A stretch of DNA of 41,845 bases from NCBI GenBank assembly GCA_016218705.1, contig JACRDC010000107.1:1-41845 (forward strand), read 5' to 3'. This DNA comes from Desulfarculus sp. (GTDB taxonomy: Bacteria > Desulfobacterota > Desulfarculia > Desulfarculales > Desulfarculaceae). Shown here in pieces: positions 32,801 to 41,525 of the stretch. Position 1 is the first letter of the stretch. Every line of letters starts with the position of its first letter. The notes under the pieces were generated by a model. It made no database searches, was not told the DNA's origin, and saw only the letters and a program-made list of their open reading frames with translations. The translations under genes were made by a program, and so were the position numbers.

Positions 32801-34441
32801 CTAGGGCTGGCGTATCCAGGCCCGCAAGAGGGAGGTGGTGCGCTCGGAGTCCTGGCTGACCAAGGCCAGTATCTGCTCGCGGGTGGTGATCTTGCGCGGG
32901 GCCGCCGGCTCCTCCAGCATGGCCGCGCCCTCGGCGCCGGCGGGCAGCTCCTCGCCGGGACCCACGCGGCGGGCGCCGGGGGCGCCGGGCCGGGCGGCGG
33001 CGGGCGCCGGCCGGCTGGCCAGGTAGGCGCTGACCAGGGGGCGGGCCACCAGGAGCAGGAAGGCCAGCACCAGGATCAGGTTCAGGGCCGGCTTGCCGTA
33101 CTCCTTGAGATAGTCCTGCCAGGCCTTGCCCGCCATGACCCCGGCGCTGGGGGCGATGGCGAAGGGCACGTTGGCCATGGTCACCTCGTCGCCGCGGCCC
33201 TGGTTGAAGCCCACGGCCCGTTGCACGATCTCGGTGAGCTGGCGCATCTCCTCGGCGGATCGGGGGGTGAAGGTGCGGGTGGTCTGGCCCTTTTCGCCGG
33301 CCTCCTCCTTGTAGGGGCCGTCCACCACCACGGCCACGGTCAGGCGCTTGAGCCCGCCCATGGCCTGGGTGATCTGCTTCTGGGTGCGGCTGATCTCGAA
33401 GTTGGTGGTCTCGCCCTCGCGGTTGCTTTCCGAGCCCTGCTGGGTGGTCTTCTGGCCGGGGGTGGCGTTCTGCTGGGCCAGGGTGTAGCGCTGGTCCGGG
33501 CTGCCCTCGGGGCCGGCGCTGGTGTTCTTGGAGCTGTCGCTGTTGCGGCTCTCGGAGCGGATGGCCACGGCCTCGGGGTCGAAGAGGTCCTGGGTGATGT
33601 TGGTGCGGGTGAAGTCCAGGTCGGCGGCCACGCGCACCACCGCGCGTCCCGGTCCCAGCACCTCCTCCAGCATGGACTGCACCTTGGCGCGCAGGGCCTT
33701 CTCGTAGTTGCGCTGGTAGTCCATCTGGCCGGCGGTGAGCCCGGCGGCGAACTCGGCGCTGTCGGTCTGCTTGCGGTAGATGAGGTTGCCCTTGGTGTCC
33801 ACGATGGTCACGCGGTCGTCGGTGAGGTCGGGCACCGAGGAGGCCACCAGGTGCACGATGCCGGCGATTTGGCTGGGGCTCAAAACCTTGCCGGCGCTGA
33901 GGCGCACCACCACGCCGGCGGATGGCTTCTTCTCCTCCTCCACGAACAGCGAGTCCCGGGGCATGACGATGTGCACCCGGGCCTCCTCCACCTCGCCGAA
34001 GCTGGCGATGGTGCGGGCCAGCTCGCCCTGCAGGGCGCGCTGGTAGTTGATCTTCTGTACGAAGTCGGTGGTGCCCATCTCCACCTTGTTGAAGACCTCG
34101 AAGCCTATGCCCTGGCCCCGGGGCAGGCCCTCGCCGGCCAAGGCCAGGCGGGCCTCGTGGAGGTTCTCCTGGGGTACCTTGATGGTGCCGCCGTCGCCCT
34201 CCAGGCGGTAGGGCACCTTGAGGTCCTTGAGCTTGGCCACCACCTGGGAGGCGTCGCGCTGGGCCATGCCCGCGTAGAGGGTCTGATACTCGGGCTGGTT
34301 GATCCACAACATCAGGGCGATCAACCCGCCCACCACCAGGGCGCCCCCGGCCATGAAGACCAGACGCCGGCCGGTGGACATGCCGCCCACCGCCTCCTTG
34401 AGCAACCCCAAACCCTTGGCCTTATCCTGGTCTTCCGCCAT
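32801..34441 (-). CDS. fliF: Flagellar MS-ring protein FliF
   Basis: A 546-residue FliF with two membrane segments (about 27-48 and 430-455) around a large periplasmic part. Ring-building motifs are present: QPEYQTLYAGMAQRDASQVVAKLKDLKVPYRL, ALQGELARTIASFGEVEEARVHIVMP and the VVVRLSAGKVLSPSQIAGIVHLVASSVPDL segment. The C-terminal FliG-binding tail ends ERTTSLLRAWIRQP. Transcribed with flgB, flgC and fliE. Confidence 0.97.
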   Translation of the reverse strand: MAEDQDKAKGLGLLKEAVGGMSTGRRLVFMAGGALVVGGLIALMLWINQPEYQTLYAGMAQRDASQVVAKLKDLKVPYRLEGDGGTIKVPQENLHEARLALAGEGLPRGQGIGFEVFNKVEMGTTDFVQKINYQRALQGELARTIASFGEVEEARVHIVMPRDSLFVEEEKKPSAGVVVRLSAGKVLSPSQIAGIVHLVASSVPDLTDDRVTIVDTKGNLIYRKQTDSAEFAAGLTAGQMDYQRNYEKALRAKVQSMLEEVLGPGRAVVRVAADLDFTRTNITQDLFDPEAVAIRSESRNSDSSKNTSAGPEGSPDQRYTLAQQNATPGQKTTQQGSESNREGETTNFEISRTQKQITQAMGGLKRLTVAVVVDGPYKEEAGEKGQTTRTFTPRSAEEMRQLTEIVQRAVGFNQGRGDEVTMANVPFAIAPSAGVMAGKAWQDYLKEYGKPALNLILVLAFLLLVARPLVSAYLASRPAPAAARPGAPGARRVGPGEELPAGAEGAAMLEEPAAPRKITTREQILALVSQDSERTTSLLRAWIRQP

Positions 34442-34508
34442 GTCTCAAATCCTCGCGCCCCTGCCGGGCCTCGATGCTGTTGGTCCCTGCGCTGCCTTGC
34501 CCCAGGTC

Positions 34509-34817
34509 CTAGAACTGCATGCGCATGACTTCGTGGTAGGCGTTGATGACCTTGCCACGCACCGCCAGGAGCAGGTTCATGGAGATGCTGGCCTGCTCCA
34601 CGGTTATCATGGTTTCGTGCAGGGTCTTGGTGCGCCCCACGGCCAGGTCGGTCATGGCCTGGTTGGCGCTCTGCTGCATGTTCTCCACCTTGGCGATGGA
34701 GTCCTTCATGGTGTCGGCGAAGCTCTTGCCGCCGCTTGGCGGCTTGGTCTCCTTGCGGCCCACGCCGGGGGTCTGAAGCATGTTGACGGAGGGGTCGTCC
34801 AGGCGGTAGGTGTTCAT
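34509..34817 (-). CDS. fliE: Flagellar hook-basal body protein FliE
   Basis: A 102-residue FliE: a flexible N-terminus, then FADTMKDSIAKVENMQQSANQAMTDLAVG and the highly conserved C-terminal helix MITVEQASISMNLLLAVRGKVINAYHEVMRMQF. It joins the MS ring to the rod. It starts 12 bp after flgC ends and ends 67 bp before fliF. Confidence 0.95.
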   Translation of the reverse strand: MNTYRLDDPSVNMLQTPGVGRKETKPPSGGKSFADTMKDSIAKVENMQQSANQAMTDLAVGRTKTLHETMITVEQASISMNLLLAVRGKVINAYHEVMRMQF

Positions 34818-34829
34818 TTAGGGCCTCCC

Positions 34830-35279
34830 TTAACGGCCTATTTCCAGGGCCTTCATGGCCATGCTCTTGCTGGTGTTCACCGCCGTGACGTTGGCCTCGT
34901 AGGAGCGGCTGGCGTTGATGAGGTCCGCCATCTCGGTGACCACCTCCACATTGGGCATGTTGACGTAGCCCTCCTTGTCGGCGTCGGGATGGTTGGGGTC
35001 GTAGACGCGCTTGAAGGGCGCGGGGTCGGTATCCACCTTGTCCACCAGCACGCCCCGCCGGGGGTCGCCGCCAGGCGGATAGGGCGGAAGGTCCATGGCC
35101 CGCTCCAGGTGGTTGGTGAAGGGCTGGGCCTTGAAGACCGTGATCTTGCGGCGGTAGGGGCCGCCCTCCGCGGTGCGGGTGGTGAAGGCGTTGGCCAGGT
35201 TCTGGCTGATGACGTTGATGCGGGTGCGCTGGGCGCTTAGCCCGCTGGCGCTGATCTCCATGCCGGTGATGAAGTCCAT
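34830..35279 (-). CDS. flgC: Flagellar proximal rod protein FlgC
   Basis: A 149-residue rod protein. The N-terminal motif is MEISASGLSAQRTRINVISQNLANAFTT, the middle has DPNHPDADKEGYVNMPNVEVVTEMADLINASRSYEANV, and the C-terminal helix has the amphipathic pattern seen in the FlgBCFG family. There is no signal peptide, as expected for type III export. It starts six bases after flgB. Confidence 0.96.
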   Translation of the reverse strand: MDFITGMEISASGLSAQRTRINVISQNLANAFTTRTAEGGPYRRKITVFKAQPFTNHLERAMDLPPYPPGGDPRRGVLVDKVDTDPAPFKRVYDPNHPDADKEGYVNMPNVEVVTEMADLINASRSYEANVTAVNTSKSMAMKALEIGR

Positions 35280-35285
35280 GGCCGT

Positions 35286-35684
35286 TTACTTTCCCGCCTC
35301 GCTGATGGCGTACCTGATTCCCGAGAGCTTCTTGTTCATTAGCTGCACCATGGCGTTGAACATGATGTTGTTCTCGGCCAGCTTGCTCATCTCCACGTCC
35401 AGTTGCACCGGGCCGATGTCCTTGTATTCCGGGGGGGCCTGGTCAAAGGGGCGCTGGGGCTCCAGCGGCATGTGCCGGGGGTCGGTGCGCGCCAGGGAAG
35501 GAGGCAGCACCCCGCCCTCCAGGGCGGCCCTGAGCTGCTTTTCGAACTCCAGGCCGGTGCCCCGGTAGTTGGGGGTGTCCACGTTGGCCAGGTTGCGGCT
35601 GATGAGGTTCTGGGCCGTGCCGCGGCGGTCCAGATTGGCGCGCAGCAGGTCGGTGGTGCGGTCGAAGAGTTTCACGGGGTCCAT
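35286..35684 (-). CDS. flgB: Flagellar proximal rod protein FlgB
   Basis: A 132-residue rod protein with the family N-terminus LLRANLDRRGTAQNLISRNLANVDTPNYRG and the C-terminal VEMSKLAENNIMFNAMVQLMNKKLSGIRYAI. ATG 35684 is chosen because GGAGG then lies six bases upstream; the ATG at 35690 would nearly touch that box. It is the first gene of the flagellar unit, with a sigma-54 promoter 50 bp upstream. Confidence 0.96.
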   Translation of the reverse strand: MDPVKLFDRTTDLLRANLDRRGTAQNLISRNLANVDTPNYRGTGLEFEKQLRAALEGGVLPPSLARTDPRHMPLEPQRPFDQAPPEYKDIGPVQLDVEMSKLAENNIMFNAMVQLMNKKLSGIRYAISEAGK

Positions 35685-35733
35685 GGGCATCCTCCAGCGG
35701 TTCTGACGCTCCTGGTGGGTCGCCCATGAGTGC

Positions 35734-35749
35734 AGCAAACAGCGTGCCA
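35734..35749 (-). promoter_or_regulatory. Sigma-54 promoter of the flagellar operon
   Basis: On the minus strand the 16 bases read TGGCACGCTGTTTGCT, a full match to the -24/-12 consensus TGGCACG-N4-TTGCW with correct spacing. It points at flgB, 50 bp from the ATG. A NtrC-type activator such as FlrC/FleR is expected but not encoded in the window. Confidence 0.85.
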
Positions 35750-35988
35750 GAAGCCCTCCAAGCGGGGCCGCCGGGACCCGGCCAAAATTGATTTGGCTTT
35801 TTGACACATTAGCTTGGCCGTTCCGCTCCGGCTTCCGAGCGGCCCCTGGGGCCGCCGGTTTCCGCCAAGGCTTTGACGCCGGCCGGGCCGGCACTATGTG
35901 CCCGGCTGGGGGCGCCGGCGCGCCGACGGTGGGGGCCGGGGGACCGGGCGCCCACCGCATCTGGCCATTGGCCTCGTGAACCGGTTTT

Positions 35989-36507: not shown

Positions 36508-38445
36508 ATGGGCGATTTTCCTCTGCCGCGCATCAAGGACTTCATCCACACGGTGGTGCCCTTCGACACCCTGCGCGAGGAGGATTTGACCCGGGCGGTG
36601 TCGCGCATGGAGATCGCCTATTTCCCCCGGGGCGAGGTGATAGTCCGCTCCGGCGATGCGCCCGCCCAATTTCTGCACATCATCAAGTCCGGGTCGGTGA
36701 AGGTCACCCTGACCGACGACGCGGGCAACGAGATGCTCATTGACCTGCGGGGCGAGGGCGACTGCTTCGGGGCGGTGAGCCTGTTGCAGGGGGTCAAGGC
36801 CCTGTTCGACGTCACCGCCCGCGAGGACGTCATCGCCTTTCTGCTGCCCGGCGAGTACTTCCGGCGCCTGGTGGAGACCTACCCCACCTTCAAGCGCCAT
36901 TTCAGCTTTTCGCTGGCGCGCAACATCCAGGCCTCGCGGCGGGCCAACCAGGCGCCGGGCTCGCTACTGACCGGCGGCCAGTCGCTGGGGCTGGACGCCA
37001 TCCTGGGGCGCAGCCTGGTTTCGGAGCTGATGACCACCTCGGTGCTGGCCTGCGCCCCGGTAACCCCGGTCAAGGCGGCGGCCCGGCGCATGACCAAGCA
37101 GCGGGTGGGCTCCATCATCGTGGAGGACCAGAACGGCCTGCCCTTGGGCATCATCACCGACACCGACCTGCGGGTGCGGGTGCTGGCCGGGGGGCTGGAC
37201 GCCGACACCCCGGTCACCGAGGTGATGAGCCAGCCCATGCGCACCATCCACACCAAGGCCTACGCCTTCGAGGCCATGCTGGAGATGATCCGCCACCGGG
37301 TCCACCACCTGGGGGTGACCGAGGGCGAGCGCCTGGTGGGGGTGATAAGCGACCACGACCTCAGGGTGGTCACCGGCGCGGCGCCGGTGGGCGTGGTGCG
37401 CGACGTGGACAAGATCAGCTCGGTGGACGAGCTGGAGCTGATACACCAGCGCCTGGACCCGGTGCTGGAGATGCTCCTGCGCCTGGGCGGCTCGGCCGAG
37501 TACATGCTGGAGCTGGCCACCGAGTTCAACGACAGCCTCATCACCAAGATACTGGAGCTGAGCGAGCTGGAGATGGAGCACGAGGGCCTGGGCCGGGCGC
37601 CGGTGCCCTACGCCTGGCTGGCCCTGGGCTCGGCCGGCCGCCGCGAGCAGGCCCTGCGCACCTGCCAGATGAACGGCCTGATCTTCGCCAATCTGCCCGA
37701 GGACCGCTGGCGCAAGACCCAGGGCTGGTTCCTGACCCTGGCCAAGCGGGCGGTGGAGCGGCTGACCCAGGCCGGCTTCCCCACCTGCCCCGACGGGCTG
37801 ATGGCCAACCAGCCGGGCTGGTGCCTGAGCGAGGCCGGCTGGCAGGATACTTTCCTGCGGCTCATCGAGGAAAAGGACATCTGCGTCATGCCCCACTCGG
37901 GGCCCTTGTTCGATTTCCGGTGCGTGCACGCCGAGATGGATTTCTGCGAGCCCCTGCGGCAGATCATCCACCGGGCCCAGGAGGGCAACCGCCAGTTCCT
38001 GGCGCGCCTGGGGCGCCTGGCGCCGGGCGAGCGCCCGCCGCTGGGCTTCTTGCGCGAGTTCGTGGTGGACAAGGCCGGCCAGTACCAGGCCCGCCTGGAC
38101 CTCAAGCTTTCGGGCCTGCAGCCGGTGGTGCGCGTGGCGCGGGTCTTGGCCATGGAGCAGGGGCTCAAATCCACCAGCACCCTGGACCGCCTGGCCGAGC
38201 TGGCCCGGCGGGGCATCTTGAACGAACGCTTCGCCGGCGATCTGCGCGAGGCCTTCAGCTTCATCACCCTCTTGCGCATAGCCCGGCACCTGGAATCGCG
38301 GGCCGCCGGCCGCGAGCACGACAGCCAACTGGACCCGGCCAGCCTGTCGGCGGTGCAGCGCAAGATGCTCAAGGAGAGCTTCGCGGTCATCAGCCAGCTC
38401 CAGGAATTCGTGGAGCAGCGCTACCGCGCGCAGATGATCGCCTAA
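36508..38445 (+). CDS. cNMP-binding / CBS / DUF294 signalling protein with degenerate nucleotidyltransferase motif
   Basis: A 645-residue cytoplasmic protein. Domain order: cyclic-nucleotide-binding domain (about 15-140; FPRGEVIVRSGDAPAQFLHIIKSGSVKV), two CBS motifs (about 170-295; MTTSVLACAPVTPVKAAARRM and VTEVMSQPMRTIHTKAYAFEAMLEM), then DUF294 (about 330-475) and its C-terminal partner domain (about 510-640). DUF294 is a GlnD-like nucleotidyltransferase fold whose usual motif is GSxGRxExTxxTDQDNAL. Here it reads GSAGRREQALRTCQMNGL: the two aspartates are Cys386 and Met388, so catalysis is doubtful. Homologues with the same domain order commonly sit beside a DnaQ-type exonuclease and acetate genes, as here. 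ATG 36508 has AGGGA upstream. Confidence 0.9.
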   Translation: MGDFPLPRIKDFIHTVVPFDTLREEDLTRAVSRMEIAYFPRGEVIVRSGDAPAQFLHIIKSGSVKVTLTDDAGNEMLIDLRGEGDCFGAVSLLQGVKALFDVTAREDVIAFLLPGEYFRRLVETYPTFKRHFSFSLARNIQASRRANQAPGSLLTGGQSLGLDAILGRSLVSELMTTSVLACAPVTPVKAAARRMTKQRVGSIIVEDQNGLPLGIITDTDLRVRVLAGGLDADTPVTEVMSQPMRTIHTKAYAFEAMLEMIRHRVHHLGVTEGERLVGVISDHDLRVVTGAAPVGVVRDVDKISSVDELELIHQRLDPVLEMLLRLGGSAEYMLELATEFNDSLITKILELSELEMEHEGLGRAPVPYAWLALGSAGRREQALRTCQMNGLIFANLPEDRWRKTQGWFLTLAKRAVERLTQAGFPTCPDGLMANQPGWCLSEAGWQDTFLRLIEEKDICVMPHSGPLFDFRCVHAEMDFCEPLRQIIHRAQEGNRQFLARLGRLAPGERPPLGFLREFVVDKAGQYQARLDLKLSGLQPVVRVARVLAMEQGLKSTSTLDRLAELARRGILNERFAGDLREAFSFITLLRIARHLESRAAGREHDSQLDPASLSAVQRKMLKESFAVISQLQEFVEQRYRAQMIA

Positions 38446-38712: not shown

Positions 38713-39435
38713 GTGAACTGGGGTCTGGCCCGCCTGCGCAACAAGGTGCTGCAACTGCGCTTGGGCGGGCGCTCGCTGGACCCCCTGGCCCGGGAGAACC
38801 TGCACGCCCTGGAGGGCTTACGCCTGGACTCCCCGGCCCGCGAGCACAACTTCGTGGTCATGGACCTGGAGACCACGGGGCTGGACCCCACCCGGGACCG
38901 GGTGGTGAGCGTGGGGGCCTTCCGGCTGGTGCAGGGGCGGGTGAGGCTGGGCGAGGTTTTCTCGGAGCTGTGCAACCCCGGCCGCGACATCCCGGTGGAG
39001 TCAATAAAGGTGCACGCCATCGTGCCGGACATGATAAAGGACGCGCGCCCGGCCTGGGAGGTCTTCGAGGACTTCTTGGCCTTCATCGGCACCGACATCC
39101 TGGTGGCCCACTACGCGGCCTTTGATATTTACATCCTCAACCTGGCCATGAAGGCCCGCACGGGCTTCGGCTTGCAAAACTTGGTGCTGGACACCGTGGA
39201 GATGTGCCGGGCCCTGCTCTTGCGGCCCGACCCCTACGGGGTGTACGGCGACTTCAGGAAATGCGGCCTGGACCAGTTGGCCGAGGAATACGGCCTGGAG
39301 GTGCCCGAGCGGCACACCGCCCTGGGTGACGCTATGACCACGGCGCTGATCTTCCAGCGCTTCCTGCAAAGGATGGAGCAGGACGGCGAGGGGAGCCTGC
39401 GCGACCTGATGAGGATCGGCTCCATGAGCTTCTGA
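38713..39435 (+). CDS. DnaQ-type 3'-5' exonuclease (DEDDh family)
   Basis: A 240-residue exonuclease. ExoI is VVMDLETTGLD (Asp51, Glu53), ExoII AHYAAFDIYIL, ExoIII HTALGDAMTTA (His201, Asp206), so the DEDDh set is complete. About 45 residues precede ExoI. It is related to the proofreading epsilon subunit but here probably acts with the upstream DUF294 protein, its usual neighbour in other genomes, rather than with the replicase. The GTG start at 38713 has GGAGGG eight bases upstream. Confidence 0.92.
   Translation: MNWGLARLRNKVLQLRLGGRSLDPLARENLHALEGLRLDSPAREHNFVVMDLETTGLDPTRDRVVSVGAFRLVQGRVRLGEVFSELCNPGRDIPVESIKVHAIVPDMIKDARPAWEVFEDFLAFIGTDILVAHYAAFDIYILNLAMKARTGFGLQNLVLDTVEMCRALLLRPDPYGVYGDFRKCGLDQLAEEYGLEVPERHTALGDAMTTALIFQRFLQRMEQDGEGSLRDLMRIGSMSF

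Positions 39436-39533: not shown

Positions 39534-41525
<1,992 letters not shown>

Follow-up and report, generated by a model that had tools for sequence, protein, structure and literature searches.

Loss of the first metal-binding aspartate in a Desulfarculaceae clade of cNMP-CBS-DUF294 proteins encoded beside an exonuclease and acetyl-CoA synthetase

Gene pairs that encode a cNMP-CBS-DUF294 protein and an exonuclease occur in several bacterial groups and are tied to acetate genes. In Pseudomonas putida, pp_0354 and pp_0353 form an operon that belongs to the MxtR/ErdR acetate regulon, and single deletions left growth on 20 mM acetate unimpaired (PMC9927547). In P. fluorescens, the cNMP-CBS-nucleotidyltransferase Pflu5625 belongs to the CrbS/R regulon, and no phenotype was found (PMC5715377). 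The assignment of PP_0354 and Pflu5625 to the DUF294 family follows the domain descriptions given in these two papers. The literature searched reports no activity for any canonical DUF294 protein, and a search for 'DUF294' returned no functional study, some of its matches possibly concerning DUF families whose longer numbers start with 294.

A gene of Desulfarculus sp. raises the question of what such a protein does once the residues expected for nucleotidyl transfer have been lost. The gene lies in a stretch of 41,845 nucleotides (contig JACRDC010000107.1; hereafter the window), in which a first-pass annotation had noticed that both Asp residues of the expected motif are replaced by Cys386 and Met388 in an intact frame. 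In this study, the protein (DUF294-A) was compared with its orthologues, with its paralogues B and C and with proteins of known structure, and the genes around it were compared across genomes.

The window protein and its altered active site

DUF294-A (Table 1) is encoded by an open reading frame of 645 amino acids with an ATG start and no internal stops. It belongs to the DUF294 family by descent, scoring 121.6 bits for DUF294 (curated cut-off 21) and 136.1 bits for DUF294_C (cut-off 22.5), and it shares the kind of domain order found in canonical members (PF03445 plus PF10335), such as paralogue C, PP_0354 and Pflu5625.

Table 1. Features of the DUF294-A block in the window
Feature	Position	Strand	Basis
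DUF294-A, cNMP-CBS-CBS-DUF294-DUF294_C protein with degenerate nucleotidyltransferase site	36508..38445	+	ORFs, Pfam; orthologues in 15 genomes
Cyclic-nucleotide-binding-like domain, residues 38-125	36619..36882	+	Pfam PF00027; PKG alignment: cassette Glu/Arg replaced (A89, K97)
CBS pair (Bateman module), residues about 171-286	37018..37365	+	Pfam PF00571; model resembles CBS-pair structures
DUF294 nucleotidyltransferase-like domain, residues 315-456	37450..37875	+	Pfam PF03445; GlnE- and DrrA-like fold
Degenerate catalytic motif GSAGRREQALRTCQMNGL, residues 374-391	37627..37680	+	C386 and M388 replace Asp
D469, place expected for third carboxylate (putative role)	37912..37914	+	Invariant column; in the model adjoins strand 470-475
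DUF294_C helical domain, residues 495-639	37990..38424	+	Pfam PF10335; less constrained than in paralogue C
DEDDh 3'-5' exonuclease-like gene	38713..39435	+	Pfam RNase_T; motif residues intact; co-duplicated with DUF294-A
Acetyl-CoA synthetase (AcsA), third gene of block	39537..41525	+	NCBIfam TIGR02188; synteny

The predicted structure of DUF294-A (mean pLDDT 81.6) matches glutamine synthetase adenylyltransferase, GlnE (1v4a, Z 27.0, and 3k7d, Z 26.2; catalytic and C-terminal halves), and the AMPylase DrrA (6yx5, Z 24.4, residues 301-645), so that the fold of residues about 301-640 is predicted to be common to all three. Among the matches listed by a sequence search of the PDB, none was a solved structure related to the DUF294 domain. 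GlnE and DrrA are active adenylyltransferases that use Asp residues of this kind for adenylylation, whereas in DUF294-A the Asp pair is missing and cNMP and CBS sensors precede the shared fold.

The metal-binding pair D-x-D that follows G-S-x-G-R-x-E is absent from DUF294-A, in which T-D-Q-D-N reads T-C386-Q-M388-N (C386, TGC at 37663-37665; M388, ATG at 37669-37671). The first-pass annotation was correct on these two replacements and on the frame, but not on the remainder of the motif, where E376 and T382 have become Ala and the PRC..N.W block has changed. A third acidic residue, expected in the FFDFR strand, is present as D469; a catalytic role for it is suggested by the superfamily.

The sensor domains had been described as normal, which holds for their folds. 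A CNB fold is recognized by PF00027 and by its match to 5bv6 (Z 20.7), and two tandem CBS motifs, found both by Pfam and in the model, make up a Bateman module that resembles 9s52 and other CBS structures. However, the Glu (FGE) and Arg of the cNMP cassette, which hold the ribose and phosphate, are absent, their places being taken by A89 and K97 in an alignment with PKG. Since further A, B and C rows, canonical paralogues included, show changes in the cassette as well, the ligand of this domain may be other than a cyclic nucleotide.

Descent and constraint of the degenerate clade

The window motif is not a sequencing error, because TCQMN recurs in copies from separate assemblies: in a 98% identical protein labelled Desulfarculus sp. 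(JACQYR010000120.1, L005/L074; genome G003) and in two 68% identical copies (L007 and L008, from G004 and G005). A third 68% identical copy (L006, G002) reads TAQHN, and copies with 46-55% identity read QGQDY, LGQNY, MSQDY, SPQDH, VVQEH, AGQEH and LFQQH. The first Asp is thus gone in 15 of 15 orthologues (Cys in four, Gly in six, and Ala, Ser, Pro, Val and Phe in one each), while the second position holds Met in four, Asp in six, Glu in two, and His, Asn and Gln in one each; Q387 between them is invariant. The Cys/Met pair, proposed as a possible clade marker, marks a four-genome sub-clade only, the residues being varied across the remainder of the clade. For the same reason, a new conserved active site built from Cys and Met is ruled out.

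The genome of the window (G000) encodes three DUF294 proteins: DUF294-A, paralogue C (contig C106, 55% identical to A) and paralogue B (contig C89, 33% identical), the latter two with TDQDN. In a maximum-likelihood tree of 43 rows (15 degenerate A rows and 28 others), the 15 form one clade (support 100/99) beside the C-type copies, with which they make up a joint group within the DUF294 family tree (97/100). D-Q-D is intact in all 28 of the other rows, including every B and C paralogue of the A-bearing genomes, as well as in 70 of 70 DUF294 proteins sampled from other genomes of the phylum (a sample rather than a census of all bacteria, 30 of the 70 coming from genomes with a weak best match) and in the remoter sequences of other groups that were aligned. 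Loss of the first Asp is therefore no chance event and has a single origin, ancestral to a paralogue clade of the Desulfarculaceae, whose named bearers are metagenome-assembled genomes of this family and the cultured Desulfocarbo indianensis strain SCBM, in which DUF294-A carries GQEH where DQDN is expected. No relative was found in the viral contigs searched, and a plasmid search gave distant relatives only. Further DQD-type DUF294 paralogues stand beside exonucleases of their own in G009, G018 and G017 (L047, L021, L049 and L050); the open frames of L049 and L050 span only 393-411 amino acids, with the sensor half seemingly absent.

Positions that are fixed in B and C and lost in A (E376, T382, R384, D386, D388, R426, N435, W438 and D542, among others) lie nearly all within the nucleotidyltransferase and C-terminal domains. 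The domains were also compared by mean identity among A and among C copies over the same 12 genomes (66 pairs, which are not independent). The sensors are about equally conserved in A and C, at 63.4 versus 63.9% for the cNMP domain and 64.9 versus 66.8% for CBS, with A below C in 39 and 42 of the 66 pairs, respectively. In contrast, the values are 49.3 versus 71.8% for DUF294 and 55.5 versus 77.8% for DUF294_C, with A below C in every pair for both domains, and four separate sister pairs agree that both are less conserved in A. The catalytic half has thus been relaxed and the sensor half has not; between G000 and G003 the CBS pair is the most constrained part of DUF294-A, at 100% identity. Alternatively, the relaxation in both C-terminal domains might reflect gradual decay of this half of the protein.

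The frame is open in every copy across several genera, and whole-protein dN/dS in five pairs of sister copies is 0.077, 0.086, 0.14, 0.18 and 0.29. A pseudogene is ruled out by this purifying selection and by the copies in other assemblies. The loss of catalytic residues is real, ancient, lineage-specific and selectively retained within a known family. Clade-wide loss of the Asp, the contrast between domains and the low dN/dS together indicate an old, selectively retained pseudo-nucleotidyltransferase, although 'dead' is a reading of superfamily chemistry, no activity being reported for the canonical proteins themselves in the literature searched.

Gene order and the linked exonuclease

In 15 Desulfarculaceae genomes the gene for DUF294-A is followed by a DEDDh exonuclease-like gene and the acetyl-CoA synthetase gene (acs), all in the same direction, and canonical paralogue B comes next, co-directional as well, wherever the contig goes on. 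The window contig ends after acs and B is located at one end of a different contig, whereas the four genes are contiguous in G003. Gaps within the block are mostly 26-200 bp, with about 270 bp between A and the exonuclease in the window and in G003, and 417-521 bp between the exonuclease and acs in two relatives. Flagellar genes (fliF, fliE, flgC and flgB-like; window 32801-35960, minus strand) diverge from the block, in the same order in G003. In Desulfocarbo indianensis the gene for a stand-alone two-CBS protein (L083:7031-7699) immediately precedes that for DUF294-A. Past DUF294-B come a sodium:solute symporter on the opposite strand in G014 and Desulfocarbo and a hybrid histidine kinase in G003 (L115:3501-5291, L083:16403-17923 and L114:3340-5733).

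In a tree of the exonucleases, A-linked and C-linked proteins are separated with support of 98/97, five ungrouped long-branch rows falling beside the A-linked group. This separation indicates that the duplication which gave rise to A also included its exonuclease, and both groups keep the DEDDh residues (D-E-D-H-D) intact. The same neighbourhood of DUF294 and exonuclease genes is present in Desulfosarcina, Marinobacter, Marinospirillum, Serpentinimonas and Actinobacteria. Motif II of the DUF294-linked exonuclease apparently has Glu (HHRGIER, HHAAIET) in place of Asp in Marinospirillum, Marinobacter, Serpentinimonas and Actinobacteria (L094, L095, L096, L092, L090 and L091), and it has Asp in the Desulfarculaceae. 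PP_0354-type systems are alike in having a downstream RNase_T exonuclease gene (pp_0354-pp_0353) and a link to acetate genes (PMC9927547, PMC5715377); DQD is kept in the canonical members sampled but gone from DUF294-A, whose catalytic and C-terminal domains also change more rapidly.

A probable retained regulator and its possible partners

The explanation that best accommodates these observations, to which we give a probability of roughly 0.6, is that DUF294-A is a retained non-catalytic sensor-regulator with the exonuclease as its likeliest partner; for the partner taken alone, the odds are less than even. The cNMP-CBS-DUF294/exonuclease pair would have been duplicated before most Desulfarculaceae diverged, and one copy placed in front of acs. 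This copy then lost its first metal-binding Asp, after which the nucleotidyltransferase site would have drifted. The protein is still under purifying selection, strongest in the sensor half. Such a distribution of constraint suggests that the remaining task is to bind a ligand and relay its state, so that DUF294-A is probably a ligand-reading regulatory subunit. The CBS pair suggests an adenylate as ligand, whose state would be passed without nucleotide transfer to a partner, most plausibly the co-duplicated exonuclease, and this output would adjust how Acs activates acetate. On the simplest reading, the sensing and partner function of the pair lives on in A, minus the transfer step. The first-pass annotation had also suggested a ligand-controlled scaffold: catalytic loss with the protein kept as a sensor or scaffold has good support from the loss across the clade, from purifying selection and from the relaxation of particular domains. 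The loss is older than the window protein. Its proposal that the neighbouring exonuclease or Acs is regulated is plausible, given the co-duplication of the former and the constant adjacency of the latter; it overlooked paralogue B, a natural partner too, which is predicted to be active and closes the same block. Several points weigh against the preferred explanation: the Desulfarculaceae G007 and G016 have an Acs (77-81% identical to that of the window) without A, the Pseudomonas deletions grew normally on 20 mM acetate, D469 and, in six copies, the second Asp are retained, and the C-terminal half is relaxed throughout. G006 has only a 59% identical Acs.

Enzyme/pseudoenzyme pairs offer a model for another, rather unlikely arrangement, in which DUF294-A is a regulatory subunit of the predicted-active DUF294-C or -B, forming a hetero-oligomer through its cNMP/CBS half and adjusting or blocking their nucleotidyl transfer. 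The part kept in A is a natural oligomerization surface, the cNMP domains of A and C are 47-67% identical within one genome, and B shares both the block of A and its distribution, G006, G007 and G016 having C only. However, B is just 30-33% identical to A overall, and co-duplication of A with its own exonuclease points to the latter instead.

It is less probable still that DUF294-A is a working nucleotidyltransferase, either with a changed metal site to which D469 and the second Asp (or whatever replaces it) contribute, or with other chemistry. Four residues (D469, Q387, R378 and E380) do not vary across the A, B and C rows and six of the 15 copies keep the second Asp, so that weak residual chemistry may persist. 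However, the first Asp is lost throughout and the second is Met, His, Asn, Glu or Gln in nine; no acidic replacement is common to the clade, the only residues newly fixed in A (F111, G161, Y332 and Y526) being non-acidic; and the catalytic domain is below that of C in conservation in all 66 pairs. A decaying duplicate without present function, to which the faster change of the catalytic and C-terminal domains and the absence of A from three family members with C might point, is strongly disfavoured by intact frames across genera, dN/dS well under 1, sensors as constrained as in the canonical paralogue and fixed synteny.

Pseudoenzymes are common, which limits the surprise, and DUF294-A resembles pseudoenzyme paralogues in general in that catalytic loss followed duplication and the protein was retained; no report of a pseudo-DUF294 clade was found in the literature searched. 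Regulators of the AcuB type have a CBS pair of similar fold (9s52) but, unlike DUF294-A, lack a nucleotidyltransferase-like part and are not DUF294 proteins. The AcuB gene of Bacillus belongs to the acu locus, close to acsA.

For the retained sensor-regulator, a bolder and doubtful extension would be that in the Desulfarculaceae a writer/nuclease pair has become a ligand-gated nuclease, in which the DUF294 half is a pure allosteric subunit that, with the active nuclease, controls acetate activation. A natural clade that has lost the transferase site but kept sensors and nuclease sets the protein's two roles apart and makes it testable whether the output of the pair needs nucleotidyl transfer at all; its clean domain-specific contrast and its place in the acs block add to its usefulness as a test case.
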